Source: Anaerolineae bacterium (GTDB taxonomy: Bacteria; Chloroflexota; Anaerolineae; DUEN01). Taken from it: DNA of 64,000 bases. The stretch's first letter is position 1; each line of letters starts with the position of its first letter. A model generated the notes under the pieces. That model made no database searches, was not told the DNA's origin, and saw nothing but the letters and a program-made list of their open reading frames with translations. The position numbers were made by a program, and so were the translations under genes. Shown one piece after another: positions 44,047-50,234 of the stretch. Location: assembly GCA_025060615.1 (NCBI GenBank), contig JANXBS010000007.1:1-64000 (forward strand), in the 5' to 3' direction.

Positions 44047-44337
44047 CTATGGAAGATCTGAGCTTTCGGAGGGCGAACACAACATCTTCTCTTGCAGATC
44101 GAGCGAAAAAACAGGCGATCCCATCGCATGCAGGGGGCTTCGCTCTGGGCCAACATAGATAGCATCCGTTGGACAATAGATCTCGCACAGAAAACAACTC
44201 TGGCACTCTTCCCGATAAACGATCACCGCTTTCGACCTGCCAGCCCCATCGGGCTTCATGCGCAAAATATCCAGCGGGCATACCTTCACGCATAGCTTAC
44301 AGCCTATACATCGTTGTGGATCAATATTGTCGATCAT
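44047..44337 (-). CDS. Two-cluster [4Fe-4S] ferredoxin (AprB-like)
   Basis: A 96-residue ferredoxin with two complete cluster motifs: C10-x2-C13-x2-C16-x3-C20-P (CIGCKLCVKVCP) and C45-x2-C48-x2-C51-x3-C55-P (CQSCFLCEIYCP). The 24-residue spacing and the short tail resemble the ferredoxin domain of adenylylsulfate reductase beta subunits more than simple clostridial ferredoxins. Its ATG overlaps the stop of the flavoprotein gene (ATGA), so the two are made together and probably form a complex in which the ferredoxin passes electrons to or from FAD. It is the last gene of the operon. Confidence 0.88.
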   Translation of the reverse strand: MIDNIDPQRCIGCKLCVKVCPLDILRMKPDGAGRSKAVIVYREECQSCFLCEIYCPTDAIYVGPERSPLHAMGSPVFSLDLQEKMLCSPSESSDLP

Positions 44338-46082
44338 CCTTCGTTCTCCTGAGGAGACCAGATCTGGAAAGTCTGTGGATCGCTCAGCGATAGGGATGTG
44401 ATCCTAAAGGAAGGCGAAGTCGCACGCTCCTCCGGCCGCGTGATCAACCAGATGTCCTCATACCGCGGATCCGGCCGAGGATGATCCAGGCGGCGATGCC
44501 AGCCCCGCGTTTCCGGACGTGCCTTGGCGCTCTGGAACATAGCCTGGGCGATCCGAATGGCGCTCTGCAACTCATGCCAGCGTACCAGATCATGCCAGCT
44601 TCCAACCCGGATGGTGTGCAAATGTTCCCAGAGAGCCGCTACGCCCGCCTCGGCCTCCGCCAGCCCCGAGGAGGTTCGGAAGAAGTTATACGCCGGATCT
44701 GCGACGAAGCGCTGCAGGGATTTCAACACATCATCCAGAGAGGTCCGACTTCGCTCAGGGTCGCCTAGGTCCAGAGGGGCCAACATGGCGCAAAGCAGCG
44801 GCGCAAATGTCTCCTCCTCCCAAGAGCTATCGCCAGGTTCGGCCTGCTCGACGGCTTGGATGGCGGCTCGCCCGGCCCAGTGTCCGCTTGCTAGTGCCCA
44901 TGCCAGGTTCATAAAGGTGATCCCGCTGCCGGCGCCGACCAGCGGCAGGCGTGTCGCCGTATCGCCCGCTGCAAAAAGGCCAGGAACCCCGGTCGCCCCC
45001 GCTAGGTTTCGGATATAAATCCCTCCCCCTCCGGCAATCGATCCGACGAAACCCGGGATCCAGGGGATAGGCTCGTTGAACACATCTACGCCGGTGCGGC
45101 GCAATCCCCGAGCGACGACGGGGAACTGGTTCTCCCACTCCTGTCGCGCCCGGGCCGGGATCGCTCGAAGGTCCATGACGATGGGATCGTGCCCGGCCCG
45201 AAGCTCGCTTAGCATGGCTAGGGCGGTCAGATGAGGCGGAGCTGGGCATGGAAACCCGTGTCGCGCTAGGATGTCCTCGCCCCACCGGTTCCGCAGACGC
45301 CCTCCGAGTCCCATAAGCACATCCTGTCCATGGGTGTCGAAGAGCGCGCAGGTGGCTAGATAGCTTGTGCAGAATTCCATTCCCGCCAGCTCAGCCCCGG
45401 CTTCCAGCCCCAGAGTCAATCCCTCCCCCATCGCGGAATGCAATCCCATATGGGCCCCTCGCCACGCGCAGCCCCCGGCTGCCAGCACCACAGCCCGAGC
45501 CCGCAACGCCACTAGCATGCCCTGCTGACGGCGAATCCCGACCGCCCAGAAGCCACCCTTTTGCGCGGAACGGAGCTTTAGAATGACCGTTTGATCCAGG
45601 ATCCGGGCACCAGCCCGCAGGGCCTCCTGACGGAGAAACCGGGCGAACTCCACACTGGAAAGCCCAAGCCGAGGGACATGTTGGCGTCCGGCCGCGGGCA
45701 TCCATCGTCGATGCAACGATCCATCCTCGGAGCGCTCGACCGGAGCCCCTTTCGCTGCCAGCCGCTCAATTAGGTATGCGCACATCTCTATCGTTCGGCG
45801 AACCGCTTCGGGATGCGAAAGCCCCTCGGAGAGCTGGGCATGCTCCGCCCAGAAGGCCCCCCAATCATCCTCGGGCCGCAGGTAGATTACAACGCCCCCA
45901 GCAAAGGGGCTGACTCCATCGGCTCCGGCAAACCCCTTGGCCACCAGAAGGGTTCGAGCATGCGGCGCTGCGGCCCGGGCGGCCATCAGACCGGCAATCC
46001 CGCCGCCAATCACTAAGACATCCCATTCCCCCCAGTATATGGAGTAATCCTGCCAGCGCTCGAGCTGGAATCCCCGCTTCAT
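44334..46082 (-). CDS. FAD-dependent oxidoreductase, fumarate reductase/AprA-like
   Basis: A 582-residue flavoprotein of the succinate dehydrogenase/fumarate reductase/adenylylsulfate reductase alpha family. The dinucleotide-binding motif is VLVIGGGIAGLMAARAAAP (23-41); later FAD motifs are VVLAAGG (~205) and GLFAAGDTATRLPLVGAGSG (~390-410). The C-terminal helical domain is present. The capping domain has HGFPCPAPPHLTALAMLSEL. It lacks a signal peptide, so it acts in the cytoplasm with the adjacent ferredoxin. The gene overlaps its neighbours on both sides (ATGA each), within an operon encoding a sulfonate/nitrate-type importer. The substrate is unknown; an imported organosulfur compound or oxyanion is a reasonable hypothesis. 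Confidence 0.85.
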   Translation of the reverse strand: MKRGFQLERWQDYSIYWGEWDVLVIGGGIAGLMAARAAAPHARTLLVAKGFAGADGVSPFAGGVVIYLRPEDDWGAFWAEHAQLSEGLSHPEAVRRTIEMCAYLIERLAAKGAPVERSEDGSLHRRWMPAAGRQHVPRLGLSSVEFARFLRQEALRAGARILDQTVILKLRSAQKGGFWAVGIRRQQGMLVALRARAVVLAAGGCAWRGAHMGLHSAMGEGLTLGLEAGAELAGMEFCTSYLATCALFDTHGQDVLMGLGGRLRNRWGEDILARHGFPCPAPPHLTALAMLSELRAGHDPIVMDLRAIPARARQEWENQFPVVARGLRRTGVDVFNEPIPWIPGFVGSIAGGGGIYIRNLAGATGVPGLFAAGDTATRLPLVGAGSGITFMNLAWALASGHWAGRAAIQAVEQAEPGDSSWEEETFAPLLCAMLAPLDLGDPERSRTSLDDVLKSLQRFVADPAYNFFRTSSGLAEAEAGVAALWEHLHTIRVGSWHDLVRWHELQSAIRIAQAMFQSAKARPETRGWHRRLDHPRPDPRYEDIWLITRPEERATSPSFRITSLSLSDPQTFQIWSPQENEG

Positions 46083-46885
46083 CGCCTCGCTCCTGGAAGG
46101 GCCTTGGTGATCTGTCGAACTCCTGCATCCAGGCCCAGCCCGATCATGCCAATGGCCAGGATCGTTGCCATCAGCTCAGGATAGGCCAGCCGATCCCGGG
46201 TGTTCAACAGGAAGTAACCAAGCCCGCTGCTGACCCCCAGCATCTCGGCCGGGACCAGCACCACCCACGCCAGGCCCACGGCCAAGCGGATACCTCCAAC
46301 GATCTGCGGGAGAATCGCGGGAAGGATCACATGGGCCAGAAGATGGAGGCCTCGCGCCCCGACGCTCCGAGCCATCAGCAGCCACCCTGGCTCCAACTGC
46401 CGGATCCCGGCTGCGGTACCGAAGAGGATCGGCCAAATCGTGGCAACGACGATCAGAGAGATCACCGCCAGATCTCCGACTCCTAGGAGAATAATCGCCA
46501 GAGGCGCCCATGAAAGCGGGGACATGGTTCGCAGAATATGAATCGGGATCAGAAAGGCCTGTTCGACCGAGGGACGGAGCCCAAGGATCAGTCCGATGGA
46601 CGTGCCCATCCCGATGGCCAGAGATAGACCGATCAGGACCCGCTTGAGGCTCAGGAGCCCATGGGCGATCAGCACTCCGCTGCTCATCAGATGCCAGAGG
46701 GCGGGCAGGGTTTCAAAGGGCGAGAAGCTGGTCAGAAGGGCATGCGAACCAGGCCAGGATGGATGGGTGACACCCCACCACAATCCACCCATGAAAGCCA
46801 CCCCCAACACGGGACGCAACATCTTCCGCTTTCGGCTCACCGGTTGGGCTCGAACCGCGCCGGTGGAGATCCGGGCTTCAAGCAT
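46079..46885 (-). CDS. Nitrate/sulfonate/taurine-type ABC importer permease (SsuC/TauC-like)
   Basis: A 268-residue permease with six helices and the SsuC/TauC-type EAA loop region (ARSVGARGLHLLAHVILPAI), preceded by FETLPALWHLMSSGVL and SLAIGMGTSIGLILGL. ATG 46885 follows AGGAGGAG and overlaps the end of the binding-protein gene by 8 nt (ATGCTTGA). A longer frame to 46993 lies entirely within the binding-protein gene and is rejected. Together with the ATPase and binding protein it completes an importer for small anions such as sulfonates, nitrate, or thiamine precursors. Strong overlap with the flavoprotein gene links uptake to redox chemistry. Confidence 0.88.
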   Translation of the reverse strand: MLEARISTGAVRAQPVSRKRKMLRPVLGVAFMGGLWWGVTHPSWPGSHALLTSFSPFETLPALWHLMSSGVLIAHGLLSLKRVLIGLSLAIGMGTSIGLILGLRPSVEQAFLIPIHILRTMSPLSWAPLAIILLGVGDLAVISLIVVATIWPILFGTAAGIRQLEPGWLLMARSVGARGLHLLAHVILPAILPQIVGGIRLAVGLAWVVLVPAEMLGVSSGLGYFLLNTRDRLAYPELMATILAIGMIGLGLDAGVRQITKALPGARR

Positions 46886-48068
46886 CGATCTCCTCCTGAC
46901 GTTCCCAGGATGCGGGTTGATCGAAAGCTGATGGCCCTCCAACCTGCTCCAACGCCTGGCGAACGAAGCGCTCTTCCACCAGATCCTGGGCAACCCATTC
47001 CGGATCTAGGCCTTTCAGAAACTCCACGTCTCCCTCCACAGCAGTTTGCTGAAGCGCCCGGACCAGCGCTGCGGTATATGATGGATACGGATAAGGCTGG
47101 AAGTCGATCCAGCGAGGCTGCCATTCGATGTGCCGGATAGCTCCCGTGGCGGCGTATGACTCCAAGGGAGCGTTAAAGACCTTATCAATTGCCTCGACGG
47201 GATGAGGCAGATAACGGGCGAGCACCTGCGGCGCTTCCTTTCGGTTCGCCCGCAGCCAGAGCTGAGCCTGCACGACAGCACGGATCACCGCCTGTGCCCA
47301 TTCCGGCCGCTCCTCCAGGTCCTCTTCCCGCATCGCGACCACGCAACAGGCATGATCGCGCCAGACATCGCCGGTGAACCGAAACACGCGTCCTGTGCCC
47401 CTGATCTCCGCCAGAGCATTAAAAGGATCCGCGACGATGTAACCAGCAATCTGTCCGGCGGCTAAGGCGGGCAACATGTCCGGCGGATTTATTACAAGCA
47501 ACCGCACCTGACGCTCACCGAGCGTGCCCATGCCGCCGAGAACAGGCTCAAGGCTCGCTTTCCGAAAAAGCATCTGCAATACCACGTTGTGAATGGAATA
47601 CCAGAACGGGATAGCCACCGCTTGGCCAGCCATCTCCTCAAGGCTTTGAAGGTCATGCTTCACAGTGAACGCTGAGCCGTTGACATGATTCCAGGCCACC
47701 ACTTTGACCGGGAAGCGGCGGAAATATCTCATCCAGATGGCGGCAGGCATCAAAATATGGATCGCATCGACCTGTCCGGCTTGGAAGGCCTCTGCGATCT
47801 GAGACCAGCCCCGGAACAGGATGGGCGGTTCGGGCTGAAGGCCTTCCAACTTGTAATATCCCAGGGCATCGGCGATCAGCAGGGCCGAGGCATCAGTGAT
47901 CGGGAGATAGCCGATCCGCAGCCGTTCATCTTTGGGCCGTGGAGAGGGGCGCGGAGCCTTCTCCGTCACGGGTGGAGGGAAAGAGAAAGATTGACCGCAC
48001 CCTAGGAGGCTCAGGCCAAGGAACGCCGCTCCACCTCGCAAAAAGTTTCGACGCGTCAGATGGTTCAT
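46878..48068 (-). CDS. SsuA/TauA/NMT1-like ABC importer binding lipoprotein (Tat signal)
   Basis: A 396-residue substrate-binding protein. The N-terminus has a twin-arginine motif (TRRNFLRGGAAF) and lipobox LLGC (Cys 24), so it is exported folded and lipid-anchored. The mature domain matches SsuA/TauA/NMT1: RIGYLPITDASALLIADALG, then AFQAGQVDAIHILMPAAIW and GQAVAIPFWYSIHNVVLQML. Tat export of such a protein suggests a bound cofactor or quick folding. It lies 27 nt after the ATPase gene and overlaps the permease gene. The ligand is unknown, but this class binds alkanesulfonates, taurine, nitrate or pyrimidine precursors. Confidence 0.9.
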   Translation of the reverse strand: MNHLTRRNFLRGGAAFLGLSLLGCGQSFSFPPPVTEKAPRPSPRPKDERLRIGYLPITDASALLIADALGYYKLEGLQPEPPILFRGWSQIAEAFQAGQVDAIHILMPAAIWMRYFRRFPVKVVAWNHVNGSAFTVKHDLQSLEEMAGQAVAIPFWYSIHNVVLQMLFRKASLEPVLGGMGTLGERQVRLLVINPPDMLPALAAGQIAGYIVADPFNALAEIRGTGRVFRFTGDVWRDHACCVVAMREEDLEERPEWAQAVIRAVVQAQLWLRANRKEAPQVLARYLPHPVEAIDKVFNAPLESYAATGAIRHIEWQPRWIDFQPYPYPSYTAALVRALQQTAVEGDVEFLKGLDPEWVAQDLVEERFVRQALEQVGGPSAFDQPASWERQEEIDA

Positions 48069-48095
48069 GTTGCTCTTCTCCTCCTCTTAGGCTAT

Positions 48096-48860
48096 TTATC
48101 CTAGCAGCTTATGGTTTGTTGTTTGAAGCCGAGCCCGCCGCAGGGCATCTACAATGAACTCCTGTAGCTGAGGCCGCGCATCAGCATATGTTCGAAGATC
48201 TAGCTTCCAGACGAAGGTGCCCGTCTGGGGGGAAAGAAGCAGGATGTGATCCCCTACTTCCATGGCTTCGTCCACATCATGGGTGACCCAGAGGATGCCG
48301 ATCCCATCGGATCGGGCCAGCTGGCGAATCTCCACCCTCAGTTCCCGTCGTGTCGGCGCGTCAAGGGCGCTCAGGGGCTCGTCCAGGAGAAGGAAGGCGG
48401 ATTGCCGCACCAGAGCCCGAGCCAGCGCCACCCGCTGGGCCTGTCCCCCCGACAGCCCGGCCACCGAACGGTCCGCTTGGTCGACCAGCCCGACTCGTTC
48501 CAGGGCTCTCTCCACCCGCTCCCAGGCCGTTGACCCGTTCAGCCCTTTCAGAAAGCGTAGGCCAAAGAAGACGTTCTCCCGAACCGTGAGCCAGGGCAAC
48601 AGCAACGGGGTCTGGAACATGACGGCCAACTTCGGGCTCCCTGCTTGCACGGGCACTCCATCCAGCGTAACCTGTCCAGCATCTGGTCGGTCCAGGCCAG
48701 CCAGCAAGCGCAAGAGGGTGCTTTTGCCCGCACCGCTTGGGCCTATCACACAAACTACCTCCCCGTCCCGGACCTCCAGGTGGAGATCCCTAAGCACAGG
48801 AACTGGACGGCGCTGTTGCATGAAGCTCTTACAGAGCCCTTCCGCTCGCAACACGCTCAT
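48096..48860 (-). CDS. Nitrate/sulfonate/taurine-type ABC importer ATPase (SsuB/TauB-like)
   Basis: A 254-residue ABC ATPase. Walker A is VIGPSGAGKSTLLRLLAGLD (~38-57), the Q-loop is MFQTPLLLPWLTVREN, the signature is LSGGQAQR (~140) and Walker B reads AFLLLDEPLSALD, then GILWVTHDVDEAMEVGDH. No TOBE domain, as usual for the SsuB/TauB group. It begins 175 nt after the DUF4242 gene and opens the overlapping ABC-flavoprotein-ferredoxin cluster. Codons here favour CCC/GGG more than flanking genes do, which may mark a transferred block. Confidence 0.9.
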   Translation of the reverse strand: MSVLRAEGLCKSFMQQRRPVPVLRDLHLEVRDGEVVCVIGPSGAGKSTLLRLLAGLDRPDAGQVTLDGVPVQAGSPKLAVMFQTPLLLPWLTVRENVFFGLRFLKGLNGSTAWERVERALERVGLVDQADRSVAGLSGGQAQRVALARALVRQSAFLLLDEPLSALDAPTRRELRVEIRQLARSDGIGILWVTHDVDEAMEVGDHILLLSPQTGTFVWKLDLRTYADARPQLQEFIVDALRRARLQTTNHKLLG

Positions 48861-49035
48861 CGACTCATGCTCCTCCTCAGGCTGATCGAAGTTTTGTCTC
48901 AGGGGGGGCAGGGCAGAAAGCCTTCGGTCCTTCGCGCCGCACCCCAGGTTTCTCTCCCCAGGTATCTCAGAAATGTGGGACTAGTGGCCAGGGGCCTATG
49001 ACTTTCACCCCGATCCCCGTTGCATCAGCGAAACG

Positions 49036-49569
49036 CTAAGCATCGAGGCTCTCGACCCGGGTCACTGCGTCTACCGGGGCCTCCACCACCTGTCGAGCCC
49101 TCAGGACATCCTCCACGGTCTCTGCGTCGTAAAAGCACAGGCACTTGCTCATATCCTCACAGACATACGTGCGCAGGAACCGGACCTCCGGGACCATTGC
49201 ATATCGGGGACTATTTGCCATCTTGCGCTGGAGATAGGCCTCCATGCTCAGACCCGGAGGGAAATTCCACTCCACCACGTAATCTACCGTTGTGCGGGTA
49301 GCGCGGGCCTCCTCCAGCCCCTGGCCGACCAGGCGAACAGACTTGATCAGGGTGGTCGCAAGGTCAGCCTCCTGGGCGGCCTGGCGAACGCTCTCCTCCG
49401 CAGGAGCCTCCAGGATGGCGAAGAGCCGGGAGTTGTCTCCGGCCACCTGCGCCTCAACCAGTGCCGCGTTCCACCTCCGGGCCGCCTGGGCCAGCCGATC
49501 CAGGGCGGCCCGAATCTCCGCCCGCTCCACACCGTTTGGCAAGGCGCTTTCCAGAAGAAAAATCAGCAT
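49036..49569 (-). CDS. DUF4242-like small protein heading the ABC-flavoprotein operon
   Basis: A 177-residue protein. The C-terminal ~45 residues (LRTYVCEDMSKCLCFYDA ... VVEAPVDAVTRVESL) match the DUF4242/SCO4226-type nickel-binding fold, a small ferredoxin-like domain. The N-terminal half (MLIFLLESALPNGVERAEI) looks like a second, diverged copy. Three Cys (VCEDMSKCLC) sit close together and could bind metal. ATG 49569 follows AAGGAGG; the reading frame continues upstream to 49794 but that part coincides with a decayed rhodanese gene. It is 175 nt before the ATPase gene and probably co-transcribed. Function unknown; a metal or sulfur role is suggested by context. Confidence 0.72.
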   Translation of the reverse strand: MLIFLLESALPNGVERAEIRAALDRLAQAARRWNAALVEAQVAGDNSRLFAILEAPAEESVRQAAQEADLATTLIKSVRLVGQGLEEARATRTTVDYVVEWNFPPGLSMEAYLQRKMANSPRYAMVPEVRFLRTYVCEDMSKCLCFYDAETVEDVLRARQVVEAPVDAVTRVESLDA

Positions 49570-49624: not shown

Positions 49625-49895
49625 TTATCATCGTTGAGGGCTTGTGATCGTAGCCACAGAGCTCGTAAATCCAGAAGGCGAGCACAGTGCATCAGTTCCG
49701 GAAGTCGCATAGAGCACCAAGATAACTTCTTTCGAGACCTCAGCCCAGCTGTGAAGGCCTCGAAGGGTGCTTTACCCAGGACGTCACGCTGCACCGGGTT
49801 GTTCAGATTTTTACGCCATTCGAAGAGGACTGCGCCGGGTAGGTGGCCCAGATGACAGGTGCTGCTCGGATCATTATGAATCTGCCATCGTTATA
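49625..49895 (-). pseudogene. Decayed rhodanese (thiosulfate sulfurtransferase) remnant
   Basis: Minus-strand translation of this stretch gives, in one frame, CHLGHLPGAVLFEWRKNLNN, continued by PVQRDVLGKAPFEAF. After a frameshift the next block reads GALCDFRN, a stop, then CTVLAFWIYELCGYDH. These are the conserved GHIPGAV-x-(F/W)-W-x3-L and YGD-x-RN-W-x4-AFW-x5-YGYD blocks of thiosulfate sulfurtransferases. The active-site Cys segment is missing. At least one frameshift and one stop break it, and no start is evident. It lies just upstream of the DUF4242 gene and the sulfonate-type ABC/flavoprotein operon, so a sulfur enzyme once stood at the head of this unit. Confidence 0.65.
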
Positions 49896-50234
49896 TCTCC
49901 ATCCCCTGGACTGGAGTAAAGGGAAAGGCCAATGAAATTCCAGCCAGACGGAGGATCAGCGAGAGCAGACTACCGGAAGCATGACGCAAGCGTAGATTTC
50001 CAAACTAGAGGAGAAGCGGAGGCAGAAGGAGGTCAGTTCCACTTAGCGGGGCGCGCGTCCTAAGCGGGCGGCCGCCTTCTGCCCCCGCTCAGGACAGATA
50101 CAGGTGTTTACCGAGCACATCAAATCCACCCCCTGCGCGATCTGCCGTCGTGGAGCGCCCTTCGCGCCAGTGGGTGGGGCGAACCATACCACAGCCATGG
50201 TCCTTGGCAGCTCCGTAAGTTCACGATTGTATGA

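Follow-up and report, generated by a model that had tools for sequence, protein, structure and literature searches.

A six-gene operon on the minus strand (positions 44047–49569) of a 64,000-nucleotide stretch of Anaerolineae bacterium DNA (contig JANXBS010000007.1; hereafter, the window) joins an ATP-binding cassette (ABC) importer to a flavin adenine dinucleotide (FAD) flavoprotein and a two-[4Fe–4S] ferredoxin. We read it, at a probability of about 0.58, as a self-contained sulfur-scavenging cassette with an exchanged enzyme, in which the flavoprotein and ferredoxin stand in place of an acyl-CoA-dehydrogenase-fold flavoprotein. The window operon is a variant of a little-characterized type of sulfur-regulated importer cassette, from which it differs in enzyme and not in role. 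Gene calls and Pfam searches placed the six genes where a sequence-only reading had located them, and the gene string confirmed that an importer is coupled to a cytoplasmic FAD and 2[4Fe–4S] system.

The importer family and its partner enzymes

Searches with the DUF4242 protein at the head of the operon and with the substrate-binding protein (SBP) found the same importer with another enzyme. The gene order DUF4242, acyl-CoA-dehydrogenase-like, ATPase, SBP, and permease occurs on plasmids of S. elongatus, T. roseum, and Pseudonocardia, and this type of cassette is also present in nine further Chloroflexota. In sets from Proteobacteria, Deinococcus, and Corynebacterium, the small partner, when annotated, is an AhpD-like or OsmC protein instead of DUF4242, and some sets include a sulfurtransferase gene. 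SBP identity between cassette types is 39–66%, and the window SBP is 47–60% identical to those of the acyl-CoA-dehydrogenase-type cassettes. The plasmid SBPs show an identity gap: members of the importer family are mostly at 46% or above (one Corynebacterium member is at ~34%) and CmpA/NrtA at ~28%. The importer belongs to a discrete family.

Among loci with complete contexts (L082 ends at a contig edge), 24 have the acyl-CoA-dehydrogenase-like enzyme and 10, including the window, have the flavoprotein and ferredoxin; none has both and none has neither. Neither the window nor any of the nine other loci of the flavoprotein type has the acyl-CoA-dehydrogenase-fold flavoprotein. In a tree of the three joined transporter proteins, built without outgroups (when NrtA and 3UN6 served as outgroups, branch lengths in an SBP tree reached 10), one half of the flavoprotein type clusters with the cyanobacterial cassette (97/100), and a single clade for the flavoprotein-type transporters was rejected (approximately unbiased test, p = 0.009). 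Around a conserved importer, the enzyme was thus probably exchanged repeatedly; that the flavoproteins are one clade and these transporters are not is what enzyme exchange would produce.

The SBP (46878–48068, minus strand) belongs to the NMT1_2 family (PF13379, E = 3e-42). Trp88, Ser158, His160, and Met198, together with the Cys241–Cys242 pair, are common to all 17 aligned SBPs of three types, whereas the aligned nitrate, sulfonate, and taurine-like SBPs have neither the Cys pair nor His160. The best Protein Data Bank match of the SBP profile is 3UN6, an S. aureus SBP, and the closest known structures after it are nitrate and bicarbonate binders. The same Cys–Cys signature is found in the next-closest SBPs (30–40% identical), which are encoded in Bacillota operons with the order cysteine synthase, nickel carbon monoxide dehydrogenase (Ni-CODH), SBP, permease, and ATPase. 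In this version (L129 and L131–L138), the CODH is of the TIGR01702 type and the cysteine synthase gene comes first in most loci, so that a CODH lies within an apparent sulfur-acquisition operon.

Classification of the flavoprotein and ferredoxin

The flavoprotein (44334–46082, minus strand) has FAD_binding_2 (PF00890) and Succ_DH_flav_C (PF02910) domains and belongs to the succinate dehydrogenase/fumarate reductase/AprA superfamily. The ferredoxin (44047–44337, minus strand) matches the Fer4 dicluster domain (PF12838) and has two CxxCxxCxxxC motifs (8 Cys). Relatives of the flavoprotein at 39–86% identity occur in ten genomes including that of the window, namely nine Chloroflexota and one Bacillota metagenome-assembled genome (MAG) with two copies. 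The ferredoxin adjoins the flavoprotein in every such genome, and the importer lies directly upstream wherever the contig extends far enough; that of the shorter Bacillota copy ends within the permease. The neighborhood comparison suggested in the sequence-only reading thus recovered the importer–flavoprotein–ferredoxin string in 9 further genomes. Chance co-occurrence was ruled out, the string being repeated in several families and two phyla. The two operon copies of the Bacillota MAG (G298; L010, which equals L023, and L030) encode flavoproteins 89% identical; each copy has a short contig of its own, and the two may reflect strain variation within the assembly.

The cassette flavoproteins form a single clade, designated clade F (support 100/100, or 75/77 once two distant plasmid relatives were added). 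In the tree, clade F is separate from SdhA/FrdA/NadB, from flavoprotein/ferredoxin pairs linked to UbiD, MmgE, and carboxylate transporters, and from AprA, the AprA-like proteins, and the 3′-phosphoadenosine 5′-phosphosulfate (PAPS) reductase of M. thermolithotrophicus, which are a group of their own (100/100). The AprA substrate-site motifs (ERF..RFKD and EPYxIGSH) were not found in the aligned flavoprotein. The label "AprA-like" given to it earlier therefore applies at the superfamily level only; a grouping with aspartate oxidase or fumarate reductase, which had been named as one outcome that would speak against the original proposal, was not obtained. His242, Arg286, His354, and Arg399 (E. 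coli SdhA numbering) are replaced by Tyr, Pro/Thr/Ile, Val/Ile/Thr/Asn, and Ser, respectively, in all 11 clade F sequences, and the control rows L020 and L021 retain Arg286, His354, and Arg399. On these sequence features, the flavoprotein is not AprA, nor is it a succinate dehydrogenase, a fumarate reductase, or an aspartate oxidase. Its matches to NadB, SdhA, and the PAPS reductase alpha subunit could be taken to indicate a dissimilatory-type adenosine 5′-phosphosulfate (APS)/PAPS reductase, a fumarate reductase, or an L-aspartate oxidase beside a coincidental importer, but this is highly improbable in view of the tree, the four replaced SdhA residues, the missing AprA motifs, and scores far under all NCBIfam cut-offs.

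AprAB and the M. thermolithotrophicus PAPS reductase (8a8o; PMC10322725) resemble the window pair in combining a fumarate-reductase-superfamily FAD subunit with a two-[4Fe–4S] ferredoxin-like subunit. Apart from clade and motifs, the window differs from them in having its own importer and no ATP sulfurylase gene in the operon. Plasmid searches with the flavoprotein gave no match at 1e-30 and three at 1e-12. Outside the cassette, the closest relatives of the pair are found on two plasmids and join at 92/97. The pair on the Nostoc plasmid belongs to a cluster that also holds ssuD, luciferase-like monooxygenase genes, and the gene for an SsuA-type SBP; the pair on the Haematobacter plasmid has an SsuA-type importer as its neighbor. 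Although a sulfonate-type cluster or importer is close by, these pairs are ~33% identical to that of the window, have other importers, and have no DUF4242. A sister group of flavoprotein/ferredoxin pairs (L053–L055 and L031–L033) adjoins UbiD-like decarboxylases, MmgE/PrpD, aconitase, or tripartite carboxylate transporters, and its members probably act on carboxylates.

Probable link to sulfur metabolism

Two homologous cassettes are known from sulfur-controlled gene sets. The S. elongatus plasmid that carries one has many sulfur-related, starvation-induced genes (PMC8049743), and the cassette is placed after cysK and a gamma-glutamyltransferase gene. S. aureus SA0165–SA0169 belongs to the CymR (cysteine/sulfur) regulon and is repressed 11–34 fold by sulfide (PMC5480029); this operon (SA and SAOUHSC gene numbers were matched by gene order) contains DUF4242, transporter, SBP (solved as 3UN6), permease, and one enzyme. 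Both share with the window the importer family, the cassette layout, which is of the SrpF/DUF4242 type, and the DUF4242 protein, which in the window is two-domain and stands at the head. The S. elongatus SBP is 50% identical to the window SBP, and the S. aureus SBP has the Cys–Cys signature. Their enzyme is an acyl-CoA-dehydrogenase-fold flavoprotein with no ferredoxin, whereas that of the window is the FAD/Fe–S pair.

Genes for rhodanese, TusA-like proteins, and sulfurtransferases recur beside the cassettes. At one locus (L017, 11163–13096), genes of the β-carbonic-anhydrase-like and SBP56/methanethiol-oxidase families follow the ferredoxin gene on its 3′ side in overlapping reading order, and a related carbonic anhydrase is encoded in the S. 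elongatus plasmid region (L043, 5452–6030). Regulation in two distant phyla, together with these neighbors, makes sulfur acquisition the best reading, and the sulfur role suggested from the window alone has thereby gained support.

Several points weigh against it. The sulfur regulation is known from homologues, by analogy with which the window operon and its enzyme type would be sulfur-controlled. Annotations of the fifth S. aureus gene conflict, its product being named an acyl-CoA dehydrogenase in PMC9440087 and labeled otherwise in PMC5480029. The acyl-CoA-dehydrogenase-like partner is not necessarily an oxygenase, with weak matches to SfnB but also to desulfinase and acyl-CoA enzymes. Several of the counted loci are closely related (four from one genus and three from another), and independent events are fewer than the counts. 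In the literature, we found no report of the importer's substrate for any cassette.

Candidate substrates

An ordinary sulfonate or sulfone might be imported, from which the pair would release sulfite reductively as an oxygen-free counterpart of SsuD or TauD. The importer is SsuA/TauA-like, and the closest flavoprotein relatives have as neighbors either ssuD with an SsuA-type SBP or an SsuA-type importer. SsuABC and TauABC, which act with SsuD or TauD, share the ABC importer superfamily and the organosulfur theme with the window; however, the window importer is under every curated cut-off (93.9 versus 163.5 for the SBP and 113.7 versus 347 for the permease in the NCBIfam Ssu/Tau models), its SBP signature differs from those of SsuA and TauA-like proteins, and the operon has no SsuD or TauD. 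Isethionate reductase IsrBHDK with SsuCAB of R. capsulatus (PMC11423573) resembles our reading of the window as oxygen-free assimilation of imported organosulfur via an Ssu-type importer; it is a nitrogenase-like enzyme with radical SAM, releases sulfite, and is unrelated to the window flavoprotein. A siroheme sulfite reductase is encoded in only 2 of 20 cassette genomes, compared with 84 of the 201 genomes in the Chloroflexota sample; most cassette genomes would thus have no further use for sulfite, and we regard this alternative as unlikely. The difference has p = 0.005 by genome and p = 0.21 by genus; because the rarity holds by genome but not by genus, it mildly favors a product more reduced than sulfite. 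Classical sulfate assimilation may be in decay in the genome from which the window comes: on contig C6 (L102 5860–8393), an in-frame TAA interrupts the sulfite-reductase gene, and the PAPS-reductase-like gene next to it is truncated, although these could also be assembly errors.

A somewhat less likely substrate is a one-carbon sulfur anion such as thiocyanate or a compound related to thiocarbonate and carbonyl sulfide. The pair would oxidize or reduce it, and the sulfane sulfur would pass to rhodanese or TusA, leaving cyanate or carbon at the CO2 level. Consistent with this are the cyanase gene beside an acyl-CoA-dehydrogenase-like gene in Marinobacter, the Ni-CODH and cysteine synthase encoded with the next-closest SBPs, β-carbonic-anhydrase-like genes near two cassettes, the proximity of the SBP to nitrate and bicarbonate binders after 3UN6, and the rhodanese partners. 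On the other hand, only one cassette includes cyanase, the distantly related CODH-type SBPs may have a different ligand, and a known thiocyanate dehydrogenase or hydrolase gene was not seen beside the cassettes. On the Marinobacter plasmid (L114, 15530–18480), the cyanase gene comes after both the acyl-CoA-dehydrogenase-like gene and a gene for an FAD oxidoreductase, a hint of a cyanate-yielding substrate. Since Cys–Cys SBPs occur with Ni-CODH, and with cyanase in one cassette, one-carbon sulfur anions such as thiocyanate are worth testing beside sulfonates; we claim neither.

Least probable of these, a nonsulfur substrate (a thiamine precursor, nitrate, or an unsaturated carboxylate) would make the sulfur neighbors coincidental. 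The NMT1/THI5 superfamily includes thiamine-precursor binders, the Pseudonocardia cassette adjoins a hydroxyethylthiazole kinase gene, and the wider sister group of flavoprotein/ferredoxin pairs occurs with UbiD, MmgE, and carboxylate-transporter genes. However, the kinase is the one thi-like neighbor, homologues are sulfur-regulated in two phyla, and rhodanese and sulfurtransferase genes are recurrent. Rfam searches gave no hit at all in the window and detected no riboswitch, for thiamine pyrophosphate or otherwise, at seven related loci, and no nitrate pathway was found; thiamine or nitrate neighbors had been named earlier as evidence that would count against the sulfur proposal.

Origin and maintenance of the operon

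The intact order in Thermoflexus (L009) is rhodanese, TusA-like, DUF4242, ATPase, SBP, permease, flavoprotein, and ferredoxin. The window operon is 82.7% identical to it in DNA across 5.5 kb, and the proteins are 78–86% identical. The ratio of nonsynonymous to synonymous substitution rates (dN/dS) is 0.11–0.19 in all six genes, and the operon is kept by purifying selection; these values rule out operon decay. The window genome, from a heat-loving bacterium, and Thermoflexus are assigned to different families, and the flanking panB gene is just 52–53% identical between them. Because the operon is far closer to Thermoflexus than panB is, and none of the three genomes sampled from the same family has a flavoprotein match, its origin is most simply read as acquisition by horizontal transfer, after which purifying selection maintained it. 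The operon is real, selected, and mobile.

The dead rhodanese gene noticed earlier at the head of the operon was corroborated. The 235 bases at 49650–49884 (minus strand) match two pieces of the intact Thermoflexus rhodanese gene (L009 3447–4376; tblastn, E = 9e-17), a two-domain protein of the 3-mercaptopyruvate sulfurtransferase type, in two frames with an internal stop. The Thermoflexus TusA-like gene has no counterpart at the window locus. Upstream of the remnant, 170 bases at 50010–50178 are 87.6% identical to Thermoflexus L009 3000–3169, exceeding the genes.

Other features of the operon

The DUF4242/SCO4226-like protein (49036–49569, minus strand; PF14026, E = 4e-25) is two-domain and SrpF-type; it contains Cys, as pointed out before, and has a KCxC motif conserved across the aligned cassettes. 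The ATPase (48096–48860, minus strand; PF00005, E = 6e-36) is SsuB/TauB/NtrC-like, and like the other operon genes (zero of six) it does not reach an NCBIfam equivalog cut-off. The permease (46079–46885, minus strand; PF00528, E = 3e-18) starts with an ATG at 46885 overlapping the SBP stop. This overlap (ATGCTTGA) and the ATGA overlaps at the permease/flavoprotein and flavoprotein/ferredoxin junctions are as previously described. A purine-rich ribosome-binding-like motif precedes every operon gene. The SBP, a lipoprotein of the twin-arginine translocation (Tat) type, begins with RRNFLRG followed by the lipobox LLGC, with a weak Pfam TAT_signal match (E = 0.03). AlphaFold2 models of the flavoprotein (three sequences) and SBP (two sequences) had mean confidence (pLDDT) values of 42 and 34, too poor for fold or pocket analysis.

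Proposed function and significance

Here, we propose a function for the sulfur-scavenging cassette based on gene content and cofactor type. A small molecule containing sulfur would enter through the system of lipoprotein SBP, permease, and ATPase. The FAD flavoprotein, linked to the ferredoxin, may then run a cytoplasmic redox reaction on it that liberates usable sulfur, with electrons passing the two [4Fe–4S] clusters during the flavin redox step. The importer's partner in most bacteria would be the acyl-CoA-dehydrogenase-fold flavoprotein, for which the pair has been exchanged here. The sulfur would be handed to rhodanese/TusA-type carriers or cysteine synthesis, and either it or the product may be handled by the DUF4242 protein, which in relatives would be aided by rhodanese and TusA-like carriers. 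The steps after import are inferred, as are the substrate class, the direction of electron flow, and the DUF4242 role. From its cofactors, it is plausible that the pair needs no oxygen. More tentatively, and at somewhat less than even odds, the pair may be an unrecognized oxygen-independent enzyme freeing sulfur from imported organosulfur or a one-carbon sulfur anion. A single importer superfamily, marked by Cys–Cys, would in that case have three interchangeable redox partners, namely the acyl-CoA-dehydrogenase fold, the FAD/Fe–S pair, and Ni-CODH.

Besides S. aureus, many bacteria of soils and the sea and many phototrophs carry the importer, which in S. aureus and the cyanobacterium lies inside sulfur-controlled gene sets. 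The enzyme-exchanged variants limit the chemistry: the substrate must fit both an acyl-CoA-dehydrogenase-fold flavoenzyme and a fumarate-reductase-fold FAD/Fe–S enzyme, and perhaps Ni-CODH. The substrate question is directly testable with one purified binding protein.

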